DNA of 22,726 bases from positions 1-22,726 of IMG/VR virus record IMGVR_UViG_3300037584_004438; one strand, written 5' to 3'. The translations under genes were made by a program, and so were the position numbers. Of the stretch, positions 2,854-11,401 are shown one piece after another; position 1 is the stretch's first letter; each line of letters opens with the position of its first letter. The DNA comes from a virus. A model generated the notes under the pieces. It saw only the letters and a program-made list of their open reading frames with translations, searched no databases and was not told the origin of the DNA.

Positions 2854-5264
2854 TGATTATCGATTGGTATTCGGACTTTATCGATGAGCCACCGATATTA
2901 TACCTACGCACACGTGGGGCTGATGGTGTACTTCATGAAAGATACATTACTGAGGATGATGAAGACTACGTTAAACCGTTCTTTTGGGTTCCTGAAAAAG
3001 CCCCTTACTGGGTAATGAATCGCCTCAAGTCATACAATGCAACTATCCATGAAGACATTAAAGCGGTAGGTCTTGATAATAAAATACTACTGAAAGTAAC
3101 TGTTGACCATCCGAATACATTATGGGAAATTAAAGACAAGTGTCCAAAGTACACTTATGAAGCAGACCTAAATTATCTTGACCAAATCTTACTCACAAAT
3201 TATCCTGAAAAGATACCTGAGTTCAAACCTCGCATTTGGTACTTTGACCTTGAATGGGATACGGGTGAGGATGATTTCACAACTGTCATGGCCGTATCTG
3301 ATTCATTCAGTGAACACCCTGTAGTGTTTGCTTGGAGTGAAGTGAGCATACGTGATACAATCCGAAAGAAAGTTTGGATTGATAGATATGGTGGGTATGA
3401 ATTACGCATCTTCCCGAATGAAGATGAAATGCATGATGCATTCCTCGGTTATCTTGAGGAGTGCGACCCCGATATTCTTGTAGCACACGCCATCGCTTGG
3501 GCTGACCTACCTCACTTGTACAGAAGGCTAGGAGCGCAGCGTGACAGACTCTCTCCGGTGAATCATGTTATACCACCACCAAAGAAAACTAATTCATACC
3601 GAACTACGGCTCAACCAATCAAAGGTCGTCTGATATACGATACTGCTGCTCAATGGACTGACGGTAGTGGCTTTGAAGCGATATGGCAAAAGTCAGGTAG
3701 GGGCCAAGCACAATCACGTAAGTTAGATTGGTTTGCTACGGCACTTGGATTTGAAGGAAAATTAACAAGTAAAATAGACGGGATGACAGTTCACAATGGA
3801 TGGTATGAATACTGGGATGACTTTGTTGATTACTGTTTAGTGGACACTACTCTCTTGCGTGACTGTGATGAGAAGTTGAATTGTATATCTTATCACGTCG
3901 CTATGCAGCAATTAGCAGGTATATCTTTTGGTAGCACACACAAGGTTAGCAGATACTTCCGTGGTTTGATAGGGAGGAGGACTGAGTTGAAAGCCCCTTC
4001 TTCTTACATAGCAGAAAGACCTGAACTACAGGCAGCATGGGTGATGCCACCCGTTGCTGGCCGTCATGAGAATGTTGCATTGAAAGATTTCGCTTCTCTA
4101 TATCCAAACATCATAACAAGTGCAAACTTATGTTATACGACACTGGTTGACGAAGGCGGAGAGAATATTTTAACAGTTAAAGTTCCTCCAAAGTATGATG
4201 ATAAAGGTACTGCGTTGCCGGGTACTGGGGGTACTTTCCACTGGAAACAAGATGTTGAGGGAATCCTTCCTTCAGTCGTAAAGGAGATGCTTGCGTTAAG
4301 GAAACACTACAAAAAACTCATGCGTGAGGCTGATGACCCTGATACTAAACTTGGTTACAACATGTTACAGATGGCCGTAAAGGTCGCCGTAAACGCAATC
4401 TATGGACTCACTGGTAGTAAAATAGTTGCAGGACAATGGAGTAGTTATCCTATCGCACAATGTATTACTTACCTCGGAAGAGAAGCAATTACTATGCTTG
4501 TAAAAGAAAGTGAAAAGAGAGGTTACAAGGCATTGGCTGGTCATACTGATTCCGTGTATGTTCAAGTTCCCTTTGATGAGGCAGAAGAATTATGCAGCAC
4601 ACTTACAGATATAGCACAAAATGAAATGAACCTACCTTATCTTGATGTTGAGTTTGAAGCCTTCTTCCCTTACTGGTTTACGGCTGCTACGAAGAACAGA
4701 AACTTCGGCATCAAATCTTGGCCTCCCGAAGATGAAGGGGATATGAAAGTTACAGGATTTGAAATGAAAGCGGCTAACGCTCCGCCTTTGAGTAAAAATC
4801 TTCAACGTGAAGTATTCACTATGATATGTAATGGTGCTGATGAGAAAGTGGTCTTCGATAAAATAAGACCTATAGTAAAGCGAGTTTACAGTGGTGAATG
4901 TGAAATTGATGATGTCGTTGCTTATGGAAGAGTGCAGAAGAAACTGGATGAATATGATAAGGTAGTCCCGAATGTAGCAAAGGCAGCAAGATACTCAAAC
5001 AAGTTCTTGGATACTAATTACGATAAGGGTGAAAGTATTAAGTGGCTTTTCATCAATGGGGTTCCCGAAGGTCAACCTCAGTGTAACGTCCTTGCTTTCA
5101 GTGAAATAGAACAACTTGATGGGTATTCCATTGACTGGACAACTTGTGTAAACAAATGGATTACTAAGAAGTTAAAACTTGTTTTTGATACGTTAGAATG
5201 GGATGTAGAAAGATTAACGGTGAGAAGAATACCGAGAACGTTTGAGTCGATGATAGGTGATTAA
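2853..5264 (+). CDS. polB: Family B DNA polymerase with 3'-5' exonuclease domain
   Basis: An 803-residue replicative polymerase. The exonuclease domain has Exo I (FDLEW, Asp132/Glu134), Exo II (DPDILVAHAIAWADLPHL, Asp218; the usual Asn and Phe of this motif are Ala) and Exo III (Tyr327-x3-Asp331), so proofreading should be intact. Polymerase motif A is DFASLYPNI (Asp412), motif B is KVAVNAIYG (Lys510, Asn514, Tyr517, Gly518), and motif C reads GHTDSVYV, with His564 where most family members have the first Asp of DTD and the second, metal-binding Asp566 kept. Length is close to archaeal cellular PolB enzymes; no protein-priming TPR insertions are evident, so it probably extends RNA/DNA primers laid down by the primase encoded downstream. 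The ATG overlaps the clamp stop. No PCNA-interacting motif is apparent at its C terminus. Confidence 0.97.
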   Translation: MIIDWYSDFIDEPPILYLRTRGADGVLHERYITEDDEDYVKPFFWVPEKAPYWVMNRLKSYNATIHEDIKAVGLDNKILLKVTVDHPNTLWEIKDKCPKYTYEADLNYLDQILLTNYPEKIPEFKPRIWYFDLEWDTGEDDFTTVMAVSDSFSEHPVVFAWSEVSIRDTIRKKVWIDRYGGYELRIFPNEDEMHDAFLGYLEECDPDILVAHAIAWADLPHLYRRLGAQRDRLSPVNHVIPPPKKTNSYRTTAQPIKGRLIYDTAAQWTDGSGFEAIWQKSGRGQAQSRKLDWFATALGFEGKLTSKIDGMTVHNGWYEYWDDFVDYCLVDTTLLRDCDEKLNCISYHVAMQQLAGISFGSTHKVSRYFRGLIGRRTELKAPSSYIAERPELQAAWVMPPVAGRHENVALKDFASLYPNIITSANLCYTTLVDEGGENILTVKVPPKYDDKGTALPGTGGTFHWKQDVEGILPSVVKEMLALRKHYKKLMREADDPDTKLGYNMLQMAVKVAVNAIYGLTGSKIVAGQWSSYPIAQCITYLGREAITMLVKESEKRGYKALAGHTDSVYVQVPFDEAEELCSTLTDIAQNEMNLPYLDVEFEAFFPYWFTAATKNRNFGIKSWPPEDEGDMKVTGFEMKAANAPPLSKNLQREVFTMICNGADEKVVFDKIRPIVKRVYSGECEIDDVVAYGRVQKKLDEYDKVVPNVAKAARYSNKFLDTNYDKGESIKWLFINGVPEGQPQCNVLAFSEIEQLDGYSIDWTTCVNKWITKKLKLVFDTLEWDVERLTVRRIPRTFESMIGD
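5255..5260 (+). promoter_or_regulatory. Ribosome-binding site deciding the MazG-like start
   Basis: AGGTGA, inside the 3' end of polB, lies 5 nt before the ATG at 5266. It favours that ATG over the in-frame GTG at 5257, which overlaps the site itself. Confidence 0.7.
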
Positions 5265-5265
5265 A

Positions 5266-5457
5266 ATGAGTAGGATAGAAGATGAAGTGTGCAAGAAGAT
5301 TCAAGCAAGGTCTGATGTTGGAAAAGAGAAGTATGGAGTGACCATGGAGACAGCGCCTCTGTCTCGTCTACAGTGGCTTATTCATGCACAAGAAGAAGCC
5401 ATGGACTTAGCGGTGTATCTCCAAAAACTGATTGAGTTAGAAGGTGAGAGTAAGTGA
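5266..5457 (+). CDS. Small MazG-like (NTP pyrophosphohydrolase-type) protein
   Basis: A 63-residue, mostly helical protein. It matches the short phage MazG-like/dNTP-pyrophosphohydrolase pattern: R-x3-GKEKYG near residues 15-24, then a helix with HAQEEAMDLAVYLQKL (residues 40-55) carrying the EExxD metal-binding motif (Glu43, Glu44, Asp47). Enzymes of this all-alpha family hydrolyse nucleoside triphosphates to monophosphates and pyrophosphate, and viral copies are thought to adjust nucleotide pools or alarmone levels. At 63 residues it holds only part of the four-helix fold, so it would have to work as a multimer or have a binding role. The start was chosen from the AGGTGA site upstream. Its stop overlaps the GTG of the next gene (GTGA). 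Confidence 0.6.
   Translation: MSRIEDEVCKKIQARSDVGKEKYGVTMETAPLSRLQWLIHAQEEAMDLAVYLQKLIELEGESK
5442..5448 (+). promoter_or_regulatory. Ribosome-binding site supporting a GTG start
   Basis: AGGTGAG lies 5 nt before the GTG at 5454 and supports initiation of the Cas4-like nuclease at this overlapping GTG rather than at a later ATG. Confidence 0.6.
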
Positions 5458-6482
5458 GATGGAATCCATCAGGTGATGATAGTCGTCAGAGGATTGATGA
5501 TTACTTAGAAAAGACAGGTAATAACAAAGAGGCAGAGTCATACAAGAAAAGCACATACGCTTGGAATCCAAACACAGACCAAGATAAGATTTTACGTGTC
5601 ACTAAGTCAAGTATCGGTACATACAACTGGTGTCCTGAACAATACTACATTGAAAAATTCAAAGGAGTGAGGGGCGAGGAACAACCTCATCACGTAAGAG
5701 GTAAAAACGTACACGATATGGTTGAATGGTTTTGGGATAATTTCACACTGAAAGATGACGTTCTAGCACTTATCAAAGAAGGAAAAGAAGAAGAGGCAAA
5801 AGAAGTCATGTACAATTTTATTCCATCTCCTCCCGAACCATATCAGTATGGGGAGGAGTTTCAAATCAGGCAATGGGTGGACTGGCAATTCTATAGACTG
5901 ATGCATACAGAAGGTGTTGAGTGGGAACCTGTAGCCGTTGAAGCAAATATTCAGGCCACTCGTTTTGTCGAAGTTGACGGTGAACATATCCCGATTCACA
6001 TGAATGGTTTCATCGATAGTATATTTTCTGATGATATGGGATTCGCATTGATGGAACTGAAGTCTGGTAAATATAAGGCTAAAAGTAAAGTCCCATCTAT
6101 GCGTAAAGAAATGGCGTTTTACAAGATGATGCTTGAACACAGTCCACATCAGGAGTTCTTACCCATTACAAACTGGGGTTGGGAGTTTCCGGGTGGTGAC
6201 ATAAACGGTGGAGAAGGTGCAGCCATATATTATGAAGATGCTAAGAAAGGTGGTAAGTACGCCATGAGAAGTGTTGAAAAGAGTTTAGTCAAATTAATTA
6301 GGGCACACATGGATATGGACTTCCCATCTAATCCGTGGCTTGGAAAAATGAGGGAAGGAGAAACCCTAGAAACAATGCTTGAGAACAATCGATTGAAATG
6401 TTCTTGGTGCGACTTGAAAGAACACTGTTCTTTTTGGTCAATTACAGATGAATTCCTTGATGAAATAATGGAGGATGTATAA
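5454..6482 (+). CDS. Cas4/RecB-like PD-(D/E)XK nuclease with Fe-S cysteines
   Basis: A 342-residue protein of the Cas4/RecB-type PD-(D/E)XK superfamily. In order: the SxSxI-type motif with the first cysteine (SSIGTYNWCPEQYY, Cys60); a His motif GKNVHDMVEWFW (His87); the nuclease core with GFIDSIF (Asp188) and MELKSGK (Glu201, Lys203); and a C-terminal cysteine trio (Cys316, Cys319, Cys325). One N-terminal plus three C-terminal cysteines is the 4Fe-4S pattern of Cas4, AddB and related end-processing exonucleases. It probably resects DNA ends in viral replication, recombination or packaging; there is no cas1/cas2 or CRISPR array nearby, so adaptation is not implied. A Glu/Lys-rich insertion lies at about residues 100-120. 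The GTG start overlaps the previous stop; its own stop overlaps the next ATG (TAATG). Confidence 0.85.
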   Translation: MRWNPSGDDSRQRIDDYLEKTGNNKEAESYKKSTYAWNPNTDQDKILRVTKSSIGTYNWCPEQYYIEKFKGVRGEEQPHHVRGKNVHDMVEWFWDNFTLKDDVLALIKEGKEEEAKEVMYNFIPSPPEPYQYGEEFQIRQWVDWQFYRLMHTEGVEWEPVAVEANIQATRFVEVDGEHIPIHMNGFIDSIFSDDMGFALMELKSGKYKAKSKVPSMRKEMAFYKMMLEHSPHQEFLPITNWGWEFPGGDINGGEGAAIYYEDAKKGGKYAMRSVEKSLVKLIRAHMDMDFPSNPWLGKMREGETLETMLENNRLKCSWCDLKEHCSFWSITDEFLDEIMEDV

Positions 6483-6781
6483 TGGAAACAAGATTGAAAT
6501 TAATGGAAATGCTGGTGAACGAAAAAATGAGAAATGATGACTACGTTGTTTTTCTCAAGAAAGGAAGAGGGTTTAGAAACGCAAGAGATGTTTTCAAACG
6601 TAGTATTGGAAGACAAACTACTTTGGATGAATTCTTTGATGTGGGTGTAGAGGCAAGATTACAACACCCTACAGAAATAGTCTATTACATCAATCCCGCT
6701 CACTTGAGGGAAGATAATACCATTGGAACTGTGAAAAAGATATTAGCAGATGTTGATAGTTACTTACATAATAAAAGGTGA
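6482..6781 (+). CDS. Unknown 99-residue protein with PIP box
   Basis: I do not recognise the fold. The protein is small and basic, with a helical N terminus, a central Arg/Lys-rich stretch (KKGRGFRNARDVFKRS) and then RQTTLDEFF at residues 44-52. That fits the PCNA-interacting consensus Q-x-x-(L/I/M)-x-x-(F/Y)-(F/Y), with Gln45, Leu48, Phe51 and Phe52, and a basic residue in front. In many PIP proteins the motif sits in a flexible segment next to a folded domain; here it is mid-protein. The gene lies between the Cas4-like nuclease (TAATG overlap, GGAGG at 6470-6474 as ribosome-binding site) and the primase, three genes after PolB. I infer an adaptor or regulator that docks on the viral or host clamp. 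It could also be a nuclease or primase cofactor. Confidence 0.6.
   Translation: METRLKLMEMLVNEKMRNDDYVVFLKKGRGFRNARDVFKRSIGRQTTLDEFFDVGVEARLQHPTEIVYYINPAHLREDNTIGTVKKILADVDSYLHNKR
6614..6637 (+). other. PIP-box coding segment (QTTLDEFF)
   Basis: These 24 nt encode Q-T-T-L-D-E-F-F, a full match to the PCNA-interacting peptide consensus. It closely resembles the KQ-T-T-L-type PIP boxes of clamp loaders and nucleases in archaea and eukaryotes. Confidence 0.75.
6776..6781 (+). promoter_or_regulatory. Ribosome-binding site deciding the primase start
   Basis: AGGTGA overlaps the TGA stop of the PIP-box gene and lies 4 nt before the ATG at 6786. It favours 6786 over the upstream in-frame ATG at 6750, which would lie inside the previous gene. 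Confidence 0.75.
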
Positions 6782-6785
6782 TTCT

Positions 6786-7874
6786 ATGACGTTTGTCCCT
6801 ATCGACTTCCCAAGAGAGGTTCTTGAGATAACGAGTAACGGCGATAGGGGTTGGAGAAGGCTAGTAAAATCGTCTGATGATTTGGAAAGATATTGGAAAG
6901 GTAAAAACGGTAGTGGTAATGTTTACTTTACCGCTTATGGTTTTTCACATACAGAAGCACCAAAACATCACCGTGTCGATTACAACACACCGAAGATACA
7001 TCACTTTATCATGGATTTTGATTGTAAGGATTTCAAGAACAATGGAACAAATGTACCTTTTGAAGTGCCACATAAAGAAGTGACAAAATTACACAGGATG
7101 TTAATGAAGGACAACATACTTCATTTTGTTTGGTTTAGTGGTGGTGGTTTTCACGTATGGGTTCCATTAGCAAAGTCACTCCATCCTAGAAATGGAAATG
7201 AACTTTCACGAATAAAGTATTCAGGGAGGGTTCTTCTGAATGAGTGGGATAGAAAATTAGGCGGTCTGAGGTGTAATGACCCTACAGTTGCATTTGATAC
7301 TAGCGGAATGATAAGAATACCTAATTCGTATAATGCAAAGAGAGAATGCTGGTCTATCCCTTTAACAAGTGAAGAAATTACCAACGGAGATTTTGACTTC
7401 TTCATGAATAAGGCACAAGAGTCCGACTCCGGCTACATCGCATTAGGAGAAGTACCGCTCGAATTTGAAGTAGTCAAAAATAAGTTTATGGATGTAAGTA
7501 ATATTAAACCAGTGTATGTTCCACCTGTTTCTTTTGACAATATACACATTCTTCCTTGTTTGGCTCAAGCCGCTTTGGGGGAGGGAAATCCTATTCACAG
7601 GGCTAGGTATCACCTTGCCTCATACTTGGCAGATAGACTTCGTATGTTCTTCCCCGCTTGGCGTGTAACTAATGAAGAAAAGAAAAAACATGTCAAACAA
7701 ATTAGTGCTTTCTGTGCGAGTCAAGGTTGGGTCGATTACAAGAAAGAAAAAACTATTGAACAAGTTCAAAGCATCGTGATGAAAGGCTACCCTCACGCCA
7801 CTTGTGCCACTCTATATGAAGAGGGGTTCTGCGTGGGTAAATGTCAGTATTACGATGGAAGCATGGGTGATTAA
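6786..7874 (+). CDS. priS: Single-chain archaeo-eukaryotic primase: PriS core plus PriL-type Fe-S domain
   Basis: A 362-residue protein from the ATG at 6786. The AEP catalytic core shows all three signature motifs: FIMDFD (Asp77, Asp79, metal ligands), WFSGGGFHVW (Ser118 to His123, nucleotide binding) and VAFDTSGMIRIPNSYN (Asp171 with Arg177). The C-terminal ~110 residues match the PriL C-terminal iron-sulphur domain: a first cysteine (Cys258), H-R-A-R-Y-H-L near 271-277, a T-x-x-Q-V helix (323-327), then Cys340, Cys349 and Cys353 near the end. In cells these domains sit on two subunits; here they form one chain, as in some archaeal plasmid and viral primases. It should synthesise primers for the nearby PolB. 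Start choice follows the AGGTGA site. The core identification is firm; the Fe-S assignment rests on the four-cysteine spacing and flanking motifs. Confidence 0.9.
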   Translation: MTFVPIDFPREVLEITSNGDRGWRRLVKSSDDLERYWKGKNGSGNVYFTAYGFSHTEAPKHHRVDYNTPKIHHFIMDFDCKDFKNNGTNVPFEVPHKEVTKLHRMLMKDNILHFVWFSGGGFHVWVPLAKSLHPRNGNELSRIKYSGRVLLNEWDRKLGGLRCNDPTVAFDTSGMIRIPNSYNAKRECWSIPLTSEEITNGDFDFFMNKAQESDSGYIALGEVPLEFEVVKNKFMDVSNIKPVYVPPVSFDNIHILPCLAQAALGEGNPIHRARYHLASYLADRLRMFFPAWRVTNEEKKKHVKQISAFCASQGWVDYKKEKTIEQVQSIVMKGYPHATCATLYEEGFCVGKCQYYDGSMGD

Positions 7875-8282
7875 ATGAGGGCAATGATAAGAATTGAGGG
7901 AAAGAGGGCACGTATAATTTCACAACTTATGCGTATTTTTATTGGTAAAGATAAAATGAATATCGAAATGGTAAAAACGTGTATGCTTGATTCTCCTGTA
8001 CAGGTTACTTCAACTGCTTTGACGGGGATATTAACTGTTTATCCCTTTTTTAAAAACGTAGGTGAAGCGAGTAAAACTTCTTTTAGTAGCAAAGGTAACT
8101 ACCCTGTTGTATTATGGAAAATTGATTTACTTTCTTTGATTAAAAAATATAGAATTTCGCCTTTAGAATATAAAAGTGGCTTGGCTAATCAATTTTTAAT
8201 TAACACTGAAAGTAATACCTTTACTAGAATAACAAAGAAAAATTTTGACGAGTGTGTTTTAGAATTACACTGGGAGGAATAA
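7875..8282 (+). CDS. Unknown protein, possible winged helix-turn-helix
   Basis: A 135-residue protein starting right after the primase stop, with GGGTGA (7865-7870) as ribosome-binding site. I do not recognise a family. The first ~70 residues read as three helices (ISQLMRIF, NIEMVKTCML, STALTGILTVYPFFKN) followed by a possible wing (residues ~60-85, KGNYPVVLWKID). This resembles small archaeal and viral wHTH regulators. The rest is Lys/Ile-rich and helical. From about 7990 the DNA is clearly richer in A and T than the flanking replication genes, and the same holds for the next gene, hinting at a separate origin for the pair. A DNA-binding regulator is the best guess, with low certainty. Confidence 0.6.
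   Translation: MRAMIRIEGKRARIISQLMRIFIGKDKMNIEMVKTCMLDSPVQVTSTALTGILTVYPFFKNVGEASKTSFSSKGNYPVVLWKIDLLSLIKKYRISPLEYKSGLANQFLINTESNTFTRITKKNFDECVLELHWEE
8273..8277 (+). promoter_or_regulatory. Ribosome-binding site deciding the 86-residue gene start
   Basis: GGAGG lies 7 nt before the ATG at 8285, inside the last codons of the previous gene. It favours this ATG over the upstream in-frame ATG at 8252. Confidence 0.75.
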
Positions 8283-8284
8283 AT

Positions 8285-8545
8285 ATGTTATGGACTGAAA
8301 AAGCAAAAGAAATATTTAACAATACAGAACAATGGATAGATTTTAATAAATTTATTTGTTTAAGAAAAAAAGAAAAAGAATTTTTTAAAAGGTTTAACGT
8401 AACTAAAAATGACCCGTTACCTACTGAATTCCCTCTAATGAATTGGTTTTTAGCAGGAGCGGTTATGAACGATGATGAAGTAATCCATGATATGGAATTA
8501 CTTTTTCATCTATTTAAACAATGGAAAGGGGATAATGATGAGTAA
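8285..8545 (+). CDS. Unknown 86-residue protein, AT-rich gene
   Basis: No family recognised. The protein is rich in Lys, Phe, Asn and aromatic residues and looks helical throughout, with amphipathic segments (WTEKAKEIF, FNKFICLRKKEKEFFKRF and a C-terminal DMELLFHLFKQW). There is no signal peptide or membrane span. A good GGAGG site and tight coupling (8-nt overlap with the downstream ERCC4-type gene) support it as real. It shares high A+T with the preceding gene, unlike the primase and nuclease that flank the pair. A small inhibitory or adaptor protein is conceivable, but nothing in the sequence shows a function. Confidence 0.6.
   Translation: MLWTEKAKEIFNNTEQWIDFNKFICLRKKEKEFFKRFNVTKNDPLPTEFPLMNWFLAGAVMNDDEVIHDMELLFHLFKQWKGDNDE
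8525..8531 (+). promoter_or_regulatory. Ribosome-binding site for the ERCC4-type nuclease
   Basis: AAAGGGG lies 6 nt before the ATG at 8538 and supports a start at 8538 (or the adjacent ATG at 8535) over the far upstream ATG at 8487. Confidence 0.6.
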
Positions 8546-9236
8546 ATATCCTGACTTGATAATCGATACAAATGAAAGAGGTAGCCTTTGTGAATCTATA
8601 GAACGACGTGCTAAGAAGTCAGGGATGTTTGTTGTAAGAAAAAATTTGATAGTAGGTGACTACTTACTTGGGGGTGCTTTAGTTGAGGCCAAGTCAATCC
8701 CTGACCTCTTTCAGTCATCTCATTCAGGTCATCTTTGGAGACAACTTGATAATATGGATGCAAACTTTGAAAGATTCTTTTTAGTCGTGCATGGTACTGT
8801 TGAGAAGTATGTGGCGATTGCGAGAAAGAACGGTAACAGATTATCTTATTCCAAAGTACAAAACGAACTCACAGGTACATTAGCGAGAGTGATGAGTGAC
8901 TTTGATTGCCAAGTGTTCTTCACTTCAAACACCAGTGAAGCAGCACAGTTTATTGTAAAACTCCACGAGAAGATACACAAACCAGCAAGTAAGCATGGGG
9001 CACAGTCTTTACGTCGTGTCGCTAGTAATGATTTGAGATTGGATATGTTGATGACAGTACCGGGTATAGGTAGGGAAATTGCTGAAAGGATTCTTGAAAA
9101 GTGTGGTAGTATCGAGGAGATGTGTTTTCCTGAATCACTGAAACAAATCAAGGGATTGGGCGAGGTAAGAAGAAAATTAATTGTTAAAATACTTACTAGC
9201 GAAGAACCCGTAAAACAACAAAACAAGAAGCGTTGA
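8538..9236 (+). CDS. ERCC4-family (XPF/Hef-type) nuclease with helix-hairpin-helix domain
   Basis: A 232-residue protein matching the nuclease half of archaeal XPF/Hef. The ERCC4 nuclease domain has IIDTNERG (Asp10, Glu13, Arg14), VGDY (Asp41) and VEAKSIPDL (Glu50, Lys52, Asp56). In most XPF/Mus81 enzymes this last motif reads ERKx3D; here the Arg is Ala51. The C-terminal part has two hairpins, MTVPGIGREIAERIL and IKGLGEVRRKLI, forming an (HhH)2 DNA-binding unit. Enzymes of this family cut 3' flaps, forks and nicked junctions, so this one may process viral replication or recombination intermediates. The N-terminal helicase of Hef is absent. It ends in a Lys/Gln-rich tail with no PIP box. The start follows an AAAGGGG site and overlaps the previous gene. 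Confidence 0.9.
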   Translation: MSKYPDLIIDTNERGSLCESIERRAKKSGMFVVRKNLIVGDYLLGGALVEAKSIPDLFQSSHSGHLWRQLDNMDANFERFFLVVHGTVEKYVAIARKNGNRLSYSKVQNELTGTLARVMSDFDCQVFFTSNTSEAAQFIVKLHEKIHKPASKHGAQSLRRVASNDLRLDMLMTVPGIGREIAERILEKCGSIEEMCFPESLKQIKGLGEVRRKLIVKILTSEEPVKQQNKKR

Positions 9237-10691: not shown

Positions 10692-10796
10692 ATGAAATGC
10701 CAAAAACCGCTTCTTCACAGACCGCAATTTGAAGGTAAACTTCATTGTAAACATTGTTATAGAGAATTGATGAAAAGGTGGGATGAACTTCAATGA
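10692..10796 (+). CDS. 34-residue Cys-motif microprotein
   Basis: A short ORF with an AAGGTGAG ribosome-binding site at the end of the previous gene and an ATGA overlap with the exonuclease start (10793-10796). The product begins MKC and contains HCKHC near residues 18-22, giving Cys3, Cys19, Cys22 and nearby His residues, enough for one zinc site. The rest is basic. The operon fit and codon-length overlap make translation likely, but a peptide this small could also act mainly in coupling translation to the next gene. No function can be read from it. Confidence 0.5.
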   Translation: MKCQKPLLHRPQFEGKLHCKHCYRELMKRWDELQ

Positions 10797-11401
10797 GCGA
10801 TATACTAGCCTTGGATATTGAGACAAGTAATTATTCTTGGGAGATAGGAGGTTGGGATAAAACCGCTTCATTTGACCCTACAGTGGTTGCTACATGGAAT
10901 GGTAAAGATGGTACAGTGTATTGTAATAAATCACTTGACATTGATGCTACAGTTAAAGCATTACACCCAAAAACACTGGGAGATGATTTGATTGACCACG
11001 TAAACAAGGGTGGTGTTATCATAGGACATAATATCAAAGGATTTGATTTACCTGTCCTAAGAGATGCTTTGGATTGTTGGAGTGCGGGTGACTTGCTAGG
11101 TAAAACTGAGAGTGTGATTGATACAAAAATATTGACTCAAAAGGCAGCAATAGTTAGCGGTGGTGTAGTGACCACTTTAGATATGCTCGTAAAGACCACT
11201 TTAGAGGACAATAAATTAATGAACAGTGAGGATGCCCCCGTTGCATGGAGGGACGGGAAGTATGACGAGGTGGCTAAATATTGCCTAAGTGATGCTCGAC
11301 TCACATATGATTTTTACGAATTCGGTAAAAGTGAAGGTTATGTTCAAACAAGAAAATTAGAGACAGGTGAAATAATAAAAATAGAGGTTGATTGGAAATG
11401 A
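10793..11401 (+). CDS. DEDDy-type 3'-5' exonuclease (DnaQ/RNase H-like fold)
   Basis: A 202-residue protein with the three exonuclease motifs of the DEDD superfamily: LALDIETS (Asp8, Glu10), IIGHNIKGFDLPVL (Asp85) and YCLSDARLTYDFY (Tyr163, Asp167). Tyr four residues before the last Asp marks the DEDDy class. The layout resembles the detached exonuclease domain of a family B polymerase, and its motif II matches the PolB consensus (N..FD) better than the PolB encoded upstream does. It may trim 3' ends in recombination, proofread in trans, or degrade host DNA or RNA. It is framed by overlaps: the microprotein stop upstream, and the thermosome ATG at 11398 downstream (ATGA). Confidence 0.85.
   Translation: MSDILALDIETSNYSWEIGGWDKTASFDPTVVATWNGKDGTVYCNKSLDIDATVKALHPKTLGDDLIDHVNKGGVIIGHNIKGFDLPVLRDALDCWSAGDLLGKTESVIDTKILTQKAAIVSGGVVTTLDMLVKTTLEDNKLMNSEDAPVAWRDGKYDEVAKYCLSDARLTYDFYEFGKSEGYVQTRKLETGEIIKIEVDWK
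11384..11392 (+). promoter_or_regulatory. Ribosome-binding site deciding the thermosome start
   Basis: GAGGTTGAT lies 5 nt before the ATG at 11398 and supports that start over the in-frame TTG at 11392. Confidence 0.6.

Follow-up and report, generated by a model that had tools for sequence, protein, structure and literature searches.

A likely exchange slot for small, predicted nucleic-acid-binding proteins between the primase and ERCC4 nuclease genes of a probable marine archaeal virus

The place between the primase and ERCC4 nuclease genes of the virus record analyzed here is probably an exchange slot for small accessory proteins predicted to bind nucleic acids, and the second of the two genes that fill it in this record would be a recent rider. 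The record, hereafter the window, is the whole stretch of 22,726 bases that was analyzed. It holds a replication block on its + strand, and this strand encodes a PolB, a PD-(D/E)XK nuclease, a primase, an ERCC4 nuclease and a chaperonin. A sequence-only reading had pointed to two small genes between primase and ERCC4 nuclease, and both are open frames: gene A (7875-8282, + strand), coding for 135 aa that comprise a winged helix and a C-terminal tail, and gene B (8285-8545, + strand), coding for 86 aa from its ATG (or 97 aa from an alternative GTG start at 8252), with an all-helical structure model and without known family. The left flank of the slot is the primase gene (6786..7874, + strand), which matches the PHROG 'primase' (E 3.9e-8), has no match in Pfam and, by motifs read in the alignment, would be of the archaeo-eukaryotic type; its frame is open from position 6750, and an alignment of 13 relatives places the conserved start at the ATG at 6786. 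The right flank is an ERCC4 nuclease gene with an HhH domain (8535..9236, + strand; PF02732, E 7.7e-19), whose two ATGs (8535 and 8538) overlap the end of gene B.

The virus is probably a marine archaeal virus. According to passages of their published descriptions, magroviruses (order Magrovirales, of Poseidoniales) encode PolB, primase, and PD-(D/E)XK and ERCC4 nucleases (PMC12999244; PMC10160649, PMC10768690), and the window carries the same four enzyme genes within one replication block. This resemblance, the sole basis of the assignment, suggests Poseidoniales as hosts. The chaperonin was uninformative in this respect, its single match (37%) lying in a Woesearchaeota contig, and a tblastn search with the ERCC4 nuclease gave no match in a phage collection.

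The slot was followed in related contigs, all of them metagenomic assemblies, whose loci are given L numbers (L002, L082, etc.). A scan with ERCC4, from which the best 80 of 125 confirmed relatives were used, provided 79 loci with both flanking genes, and every one of these 79 held a small gene between primase and ERCC4. An independent scan with the primase (best 80 of 241 confirmed relatives) recovered 61 contigs already known by name and 19 further ones, whose slots contained by profile a zinc-type protein in 12 cases and a winged helix in six, with the remaining locus (L169) holding a 51-residue CxxC...CxxC frame that was judged by eye, without profile support. The slot was consequently occupied in 98 of 98 related contigs, many of which are near copies of one another. 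Its fillers nearly always belonged to one of two unrelated kinds, a winged helix or a Cys/His protein of putative zinc type. When the 79 loci and the window were labeled from Cys patterns and by reading, the 80 rows comprised 39 of the zinc kind, 34 winged helices, four members of a second winged-helix group and three with both kinds (L041, L042 and L057, the two being fused in L057). The second, small winged-helix group owes its identity to one weak Pfam match (F-93, E 0.0024). The slot of L064 held two winged helices, and the slots of L049 and L055 held a zinc-type gene and a larger gene with an HNH-type motif. Profile searches of the loci identified 38 slot frames as winged helices and 41 as zinc-type, and the only matches outside slots were gene A of L082 and L084 and, in the cut contig L066, the frame that precedes ERCC4. 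In L057 a single chain (6604-7005) joins the winged helix to a CxxC...CxxC piece, and the free 51-residue frame of L169 resembles this second piece.

The zinc-type proteins occupy in relatives the same slot as gene A and are unrelated in sequence to either A or B. Seven Cys and one His were invariant in the 18 that were aligned, a pattern absent from A and B, and Pfam models matched some of these rows (DUF5763 in three of 18, best E 1.5e-9; zf-primase in seven of 18, best E 0.0023). Exceptions to slot occupancy came from two other records. The L084 record retains the order PD-(D/E)XK, primase, ERCC4 and g9282 at 24-32% protein identity, with primase and ERCC4 matches that abut and no slot gene between them. 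The L086 record has about 150 bases between primase and ERCC4 without a recognized slot protein, and its ERCC4 frame contains one TGA. A slot gene is therefore not needed in every lineage.

That the first gene could be a winged helix, as had been suggested from the sequence, was borne out at the level of both profile and predicted fold. Gene A matched nothing in Pfam, PHROGs or PADLOC and gave one sub-threshold match in NCBIfam (E 0.14), and it had no match in phages at E 0.1. Against a profile built from 18 slot winged helices it scored 44.8 in hhalign (probability 94.5%, columns 11-84), while controls reached at most 17.7 in 100 shuffles and at most 15.7 in 73 other frames of the window, gene B scoring 12.1. 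The matching part (residues 11-84; 7905..8126, + strand) was modeled with high pLDDT as three helices (12-24, 30-39 and 46-55) and two strands (59-68 and 75-83) that form a two-stranded wing; pLDDT by blocks was 91-95 over residues 11-90 and fell below 50 from residue 103, within a C-terminal tail (residues 85-135; 8127..8279, + strand) seen only in gene A of the window, L082 and L084. In VIA-align comparisons PadR/LmrR-type and other winged-helix proteins came first and PDB 2od5 ranked 13 (Z 7.7 over 76 residues), with Z values so closely tied that the fold of A is clear and its family is not decided by structure.

The slot winged-helix family itself matches 2od5 (E 3.8e-9), a winged helix of an uncultured marine organism that belongs, according to part of the published account, to a set of five solved structures representing novel marine families (PMC2557142). 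Eight of 20 aligned rows of the slot family, A not among them, match the corresponding model DUF3860 (PF12976). At the curated cut-off of 27 bits this model matched neither A nor anything else in the window, and we therefore call A a relative of the slot family and not a member of DUF3860; it aligns to the family that matches 2od5, lies below the DUF3860 model and adds a tail of 50 residues. By profile and model, gene A is then best described as a divergent winged helix of the kind found in the slot, extended by a 50-residue tail. The earlier statement that neither gene had a recognized family holds for B and fails for A, a distant relative of a winged-helix family with a solved structure. A search of 14 control genomes with the DUF3860 model gave no match and was uninformative, and a literature search for DUF3860 found no paper.

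Gene B matched nothing in PHROGs or PADLOC, and in Pfam it gave one sub-threshold match (E 0.2). It had no match in phages or plasmids at E 0.1, and comparison with solved structures gave no sequence match at E 1 and no fold match better than E 3.9. Its frame is open beyond chance, since shuffling the bases of its body left the frame open in only seven of 20,000 cases. Inspection by eye and its position had suggested the T4-type clamp-loader subunit gp62, a candidate rejected because the scores (8.9 and 9.8) lay below the shuffle means (11.0 and 11.2); that B is a piece of a clamp loader (RFC small subunit) was also rejected, as residues 1-8 alone align well.

The richness of the pair in A and T is real. 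GC content was 31.4% in A and 27.9% in B compared to 34.4-43.7% in 18 other tabulated frames, and the 671-base stretch of A and B had 29.7% GC, when no stretch of the same length elsewhere in the window fell below 32.2%. The reported bias toward Lys and Asn was strong in B (Lys+Asn 20.9%) and only slight in A (14.8%, with 14.1% in the highest other frame). Taken as a mark of recent gain, this composition finds no support in the relatives. In 75 of the 80 rows the slot had less GC than its two flanking genes (mean difference -6.2 points), and the slot of the window, 9.7 points below its flanks, was the 18th lowest of the 80. Low GC is thus a general property of the slot, and because the slots of nearly all relatives are AT-rich with other genes inside, it is no sign of recent gain. 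Codon use of A and B was ordinary and showed no foreign character: of 1004 pieces of other genes equal in length to A, 838 fit the codon usage of the window as poorly as A or worse, and all 1150 of the pieces compared with B fit no better than B. GC content and codon use were therefore set aside as evidence of foreignness.

Recent gain itself was supported on other grounds. Searches with A and B against 186 loci (tblastn) found matches only in the two contigs behind L082 and L084, so that the slots of the 98 related contigs contain no close relative of either gene, and a very different virus carries DNA of 87% identity (see below). Conservation of both genes at this site in all relatives, together with their composition, would have spoken against the earlier reading; the composition bias is conserved and the genes are not.

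The two slot kinds have been exchanged repeatedly. On a quick primase+ERCC4 tree of the 80 rows (59 of them different), the labels required at least 12 changes (mean of 30.0 when shuffled, with none of 200 shuffles as low), and its starred branches force at least eight changes for the zinc kind. Junctions were compared in nine pairs, six of which carry different kinds (window/L002, L006/L007, L078/L077, L021/L020, L024/L019 and L037/L034). In these six swapped pairs DNA similarity stops 7-13 bases before the primase stop and restarts between 29 bases before and 8 bases after the start of the ERCC4 match, the limits being blurred in the more diverged pairs. In L057/L050 similarity stops 6 bases after and restarts 3 bases before these points, and in the same-kind pairs L055/L044 and L049/L052 it continues into the zinc gene up to an inserted gene. 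Tree and junctions together show at least 8-12 apparent replacements of one slot kind by another, in which similarity stops at the gene borders. For example, the zinc genes most similar to that of L006 (62%) are found in L034 and L035, whose core is only 72% like the core of L006, and the viruses nearest to L006 in the core have a winged helix, unlike L006 itself. Both kinds are under purifying selection: dN/dS of the slot gene was 0.03-0.33 in 14 of 16 pairs, and the other two were saturated at synonymous sites.

Repeated one-for-one replacement, purifying selection and the exchange of almost no flanking DNA suggest that either fold can do one job. Contact with nucleic acids on behalf of the neighboring enzymes would be the simplest job to share, and we consider it reasonably probable that both slot kinds contact DNA or RNA in a single accessory task for the replication and repair enzymes of the operon. 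A single shared task would make whole genes exchangeable without regulatory DNA. The exchange itself might proceed by homologous recombination through the conserved flanking genes.

The limits of the swaps also bear on the idea that slot proteins are small transcription regulators, repressors or activators swapped as immunity-type determinants. PadR/LmrR-type regulators are indeed, together with others at tied Z, nearest in fold to the winged helix of A. Swaps, however, change only a few bases beyond the gene and leave nearly all outside DNA as it was, so a swapped regulator would leave behind any operator that lies outside the slot; moreover, replacement by a zinc-type protein is atypical of repressor swaps. 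We regard this explanation as doubtful.

A different possibility is that the junction is a landing site whose occupants share no function, a permissive place opened by endonuclease genes or recombination, with A and B playing no part in replication. This fits the large HNH-motif gene found in the slots of L049 and L055 and not in those of their near relatives L052 and L044, the neutral appearance of B and the empty slot of the L084 record. It sits poorly with the recurrence of only the same few kinds, under purifying selection, and we hold it improbable. The HNH-motif genes themselves (L049:6043-7005 and L055:6067-7005; 310-320 residues) lie between the zinc-type gene and ERCC4 and are 40% identical over 323 columns; Pfam finds the gene of L049 to be NinG-like (E 2.2e-9) and has no match for that of L055. 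A homing endonuclease is a possible driver of the swapping, the HNH assignment being made from the motif alone. Exchange hot spots and intergenic homing are known in tailed phages, and the slot resembles such hot spots in the turnover of small genes at a fixed junction of conserved replication genes and in the HNH-motif gene of L049 and L055. It differs from them in the one-for-one swap of two unrelated folds in place of presence and absence, and the slot of the window has no endonuclease.

A second virus sheds light on the history of the pair A+B. A scan with B recovered one contig, L082, which has 33% GC over the 12,246 bases compared and shares with the window a single stretch (window 7872..8537, + strand; L082:5588-6254) of 87% identity over 667 columns, delimited by the TAAATG that opens A and the ATG after B. 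The order of A and B is the same in both viruses. Outside this stretch the window DNA did not align to the 12,246 bases of L082 at E 1e-5, and the PolB proteins of the two viruses are 28% identical. Directly after B, L082 encodes a clamp loader (RFC small subunit), whose nearest named relatives are those of haloarchaeal tailed viruses (about 31%). A further locus, L084, matches L082 at 99% identity in three pieces (5.0, 3.6 and 2.2 kb), but B is absent from its whole record and A is followed directly by the clamp loader. In L085 the position before the clamp loader, taken by A in L082 and L084, is occupied by a different small protein (1118-1456) with weak similarity to the helical portion of CARF/Csa3 proteins (E 0.00035 and 0.022).

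B of L082 is bracketed by an 18-base direct repeat, the clamp-loader start in two copies that agree at 17 of 18 positions and stand 251 bases apart. The first 18 bases of B in the window (8285..8302, + strand) are identical to the start of the clamp-loader gene of L084, although ERCC4 comes next in the window, and the identity to L084 extends over 50 bases (8253..8302, + strand) that span the end of A and the clamp-loader start. These 18 bases appear to be a fossil of an earlier location before a clamp loader. Since B opens with a clamp-loader start and kept it in the window, the pair most likely came from a virus like L082. In the simplest account B would have been inserted ahead of a clamp loader, after which the pair entered the lineage of the window; that A+B was assembled next to the clamp loader before moving into the primase-ERCC4 slot is, in our view, very probable. 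Note that L084 also lacks about 209 further bases of L082, most of a 78-residue frame (L082:9814-10050) that constitutes another small gene that comes and goes. Given this second missing stretch, the difference in B between L082 and L084 may equally well reflect its gain or its loss through the repeats.

The two genes of the pair differ in age of sharing. Between the window and L082, dS was 0.82 and dN/dS 0.11 for A, which is under purifying selection, and dS was 0.06 and dN/dS 1.09 for B, which gave no sign of purifying selection over its 16 differences only. Synonymous divergence differed between A and B (Fisher p 1.9e-7), and divergence falls in the region from about 8220 to 8252, with 8220 as the best single break (2 delta lnL 23.8). 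The low dS of B relative to A indicates that B was shared much later than the divergence of the A copies, perhaps via a third virus, and B would then be a recent rider under relaxed or diversifying selection. Eight flanking genes compared between the window and L002 had dS of 1.6-2.8 or were saturated, which makes both the A and the B events younger than the split of these two viruses. Pattern scans of IMG/VR for further copies, using patterns from A, from both copies and a degenerate motif of B, returned only the contigs of L082 and L084, and the pattern from A alone gave none that was confirmed; these scans need short exact peptide matches and may miss more distant relatives.

Another reading, with host takeover or anti-defense already raised from the sequence, is that A and B form a cassette of this type; the slot would then be an arms-race locus of counter-defense turnover. 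Slot genes turn over fast, B is present or absent between 99% identical viruses, and it evolves without purifying selection. But anti-defense islands are usually patchy in content, unlike the slot, which is filled in 98 of 98 contigs, mostly with two recurring kinds under purifying selection, and neither A nor B has a match in PADLOC. We judge a takeover or anti-defense role to be unlikely. A more speculative extension of the exchange-slot reading, which we offer as a long shot, would make the slot a switch of nucleic-acid recognition for the primase-nuclease pair, with winged-helix and zinc-type proteins as interchangeable subunits supplied in trans, swaps that let related viruses evade one another's interference during co-infection, and B a young gene, born at the start of a clamp loader and spreading between virus families.

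We return to the preferred reading, an exchange slot with B as a recent rider. The primase-ERCC4 slot is not mentioned in the consulted portions of the magrovirus descriptions (PMC12999244, PMC10160649, PMC10768690), nor is it described in the consulted portions of the literature on Poseidoniales viruses that concerns gene transfer and primase, or clamp loader. What is added here is a place for the 2od5/DUF3860 family within a viral replication operon: an orphan winged helix of structural genomics gains a genomic home in the primase-ERCC4 slot of a large group of marine viruses. A single locus with two interchangeable folds also makes a shared job for primase or nuclease testable, and gene swapping between uncultured viruses can be tested directly at the slot. 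Furthermore, the apparent cassette transfer between two very different viruses is accompanied by a direct repeat, by a near-identical virus that lacks B and by a sequence fossil indicative of its direction.

Other places of the replication block also appear variable. A small gene before the primase (g6482; window 6482-6781) looks like a second exchanged gene: its counterparts in L006 and L007 differ with a dS of 1.73, compared to 0.17-0.29 in neighboring genes, and its dN of 0.42 between the window and L002 was the highest among the eight genes compared. DNA similarity is also interrupted about 2.4-2.8 kb before the end of the primase gene in the pairs L006/L007 and L021/L020, at a place near window 5200-5450. 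This break lies between the PolB and PD-(D/E)XK genes, where one member of several pairs carries inserted stretches, and marks a further variable place; a 66-residue frame after PolB (window 5257-5457) has matches among PHROGs of unknown function, several in number, with phrog_11184 as the best (E 1.5e-15). Finally, the counterparts in L077 and L078 of an exonuclease-like gene (window 10793-11401) had a dS of 0.02, compared to 0.15-0.33 or no value in seven neighbors, a sign of recent exchange.
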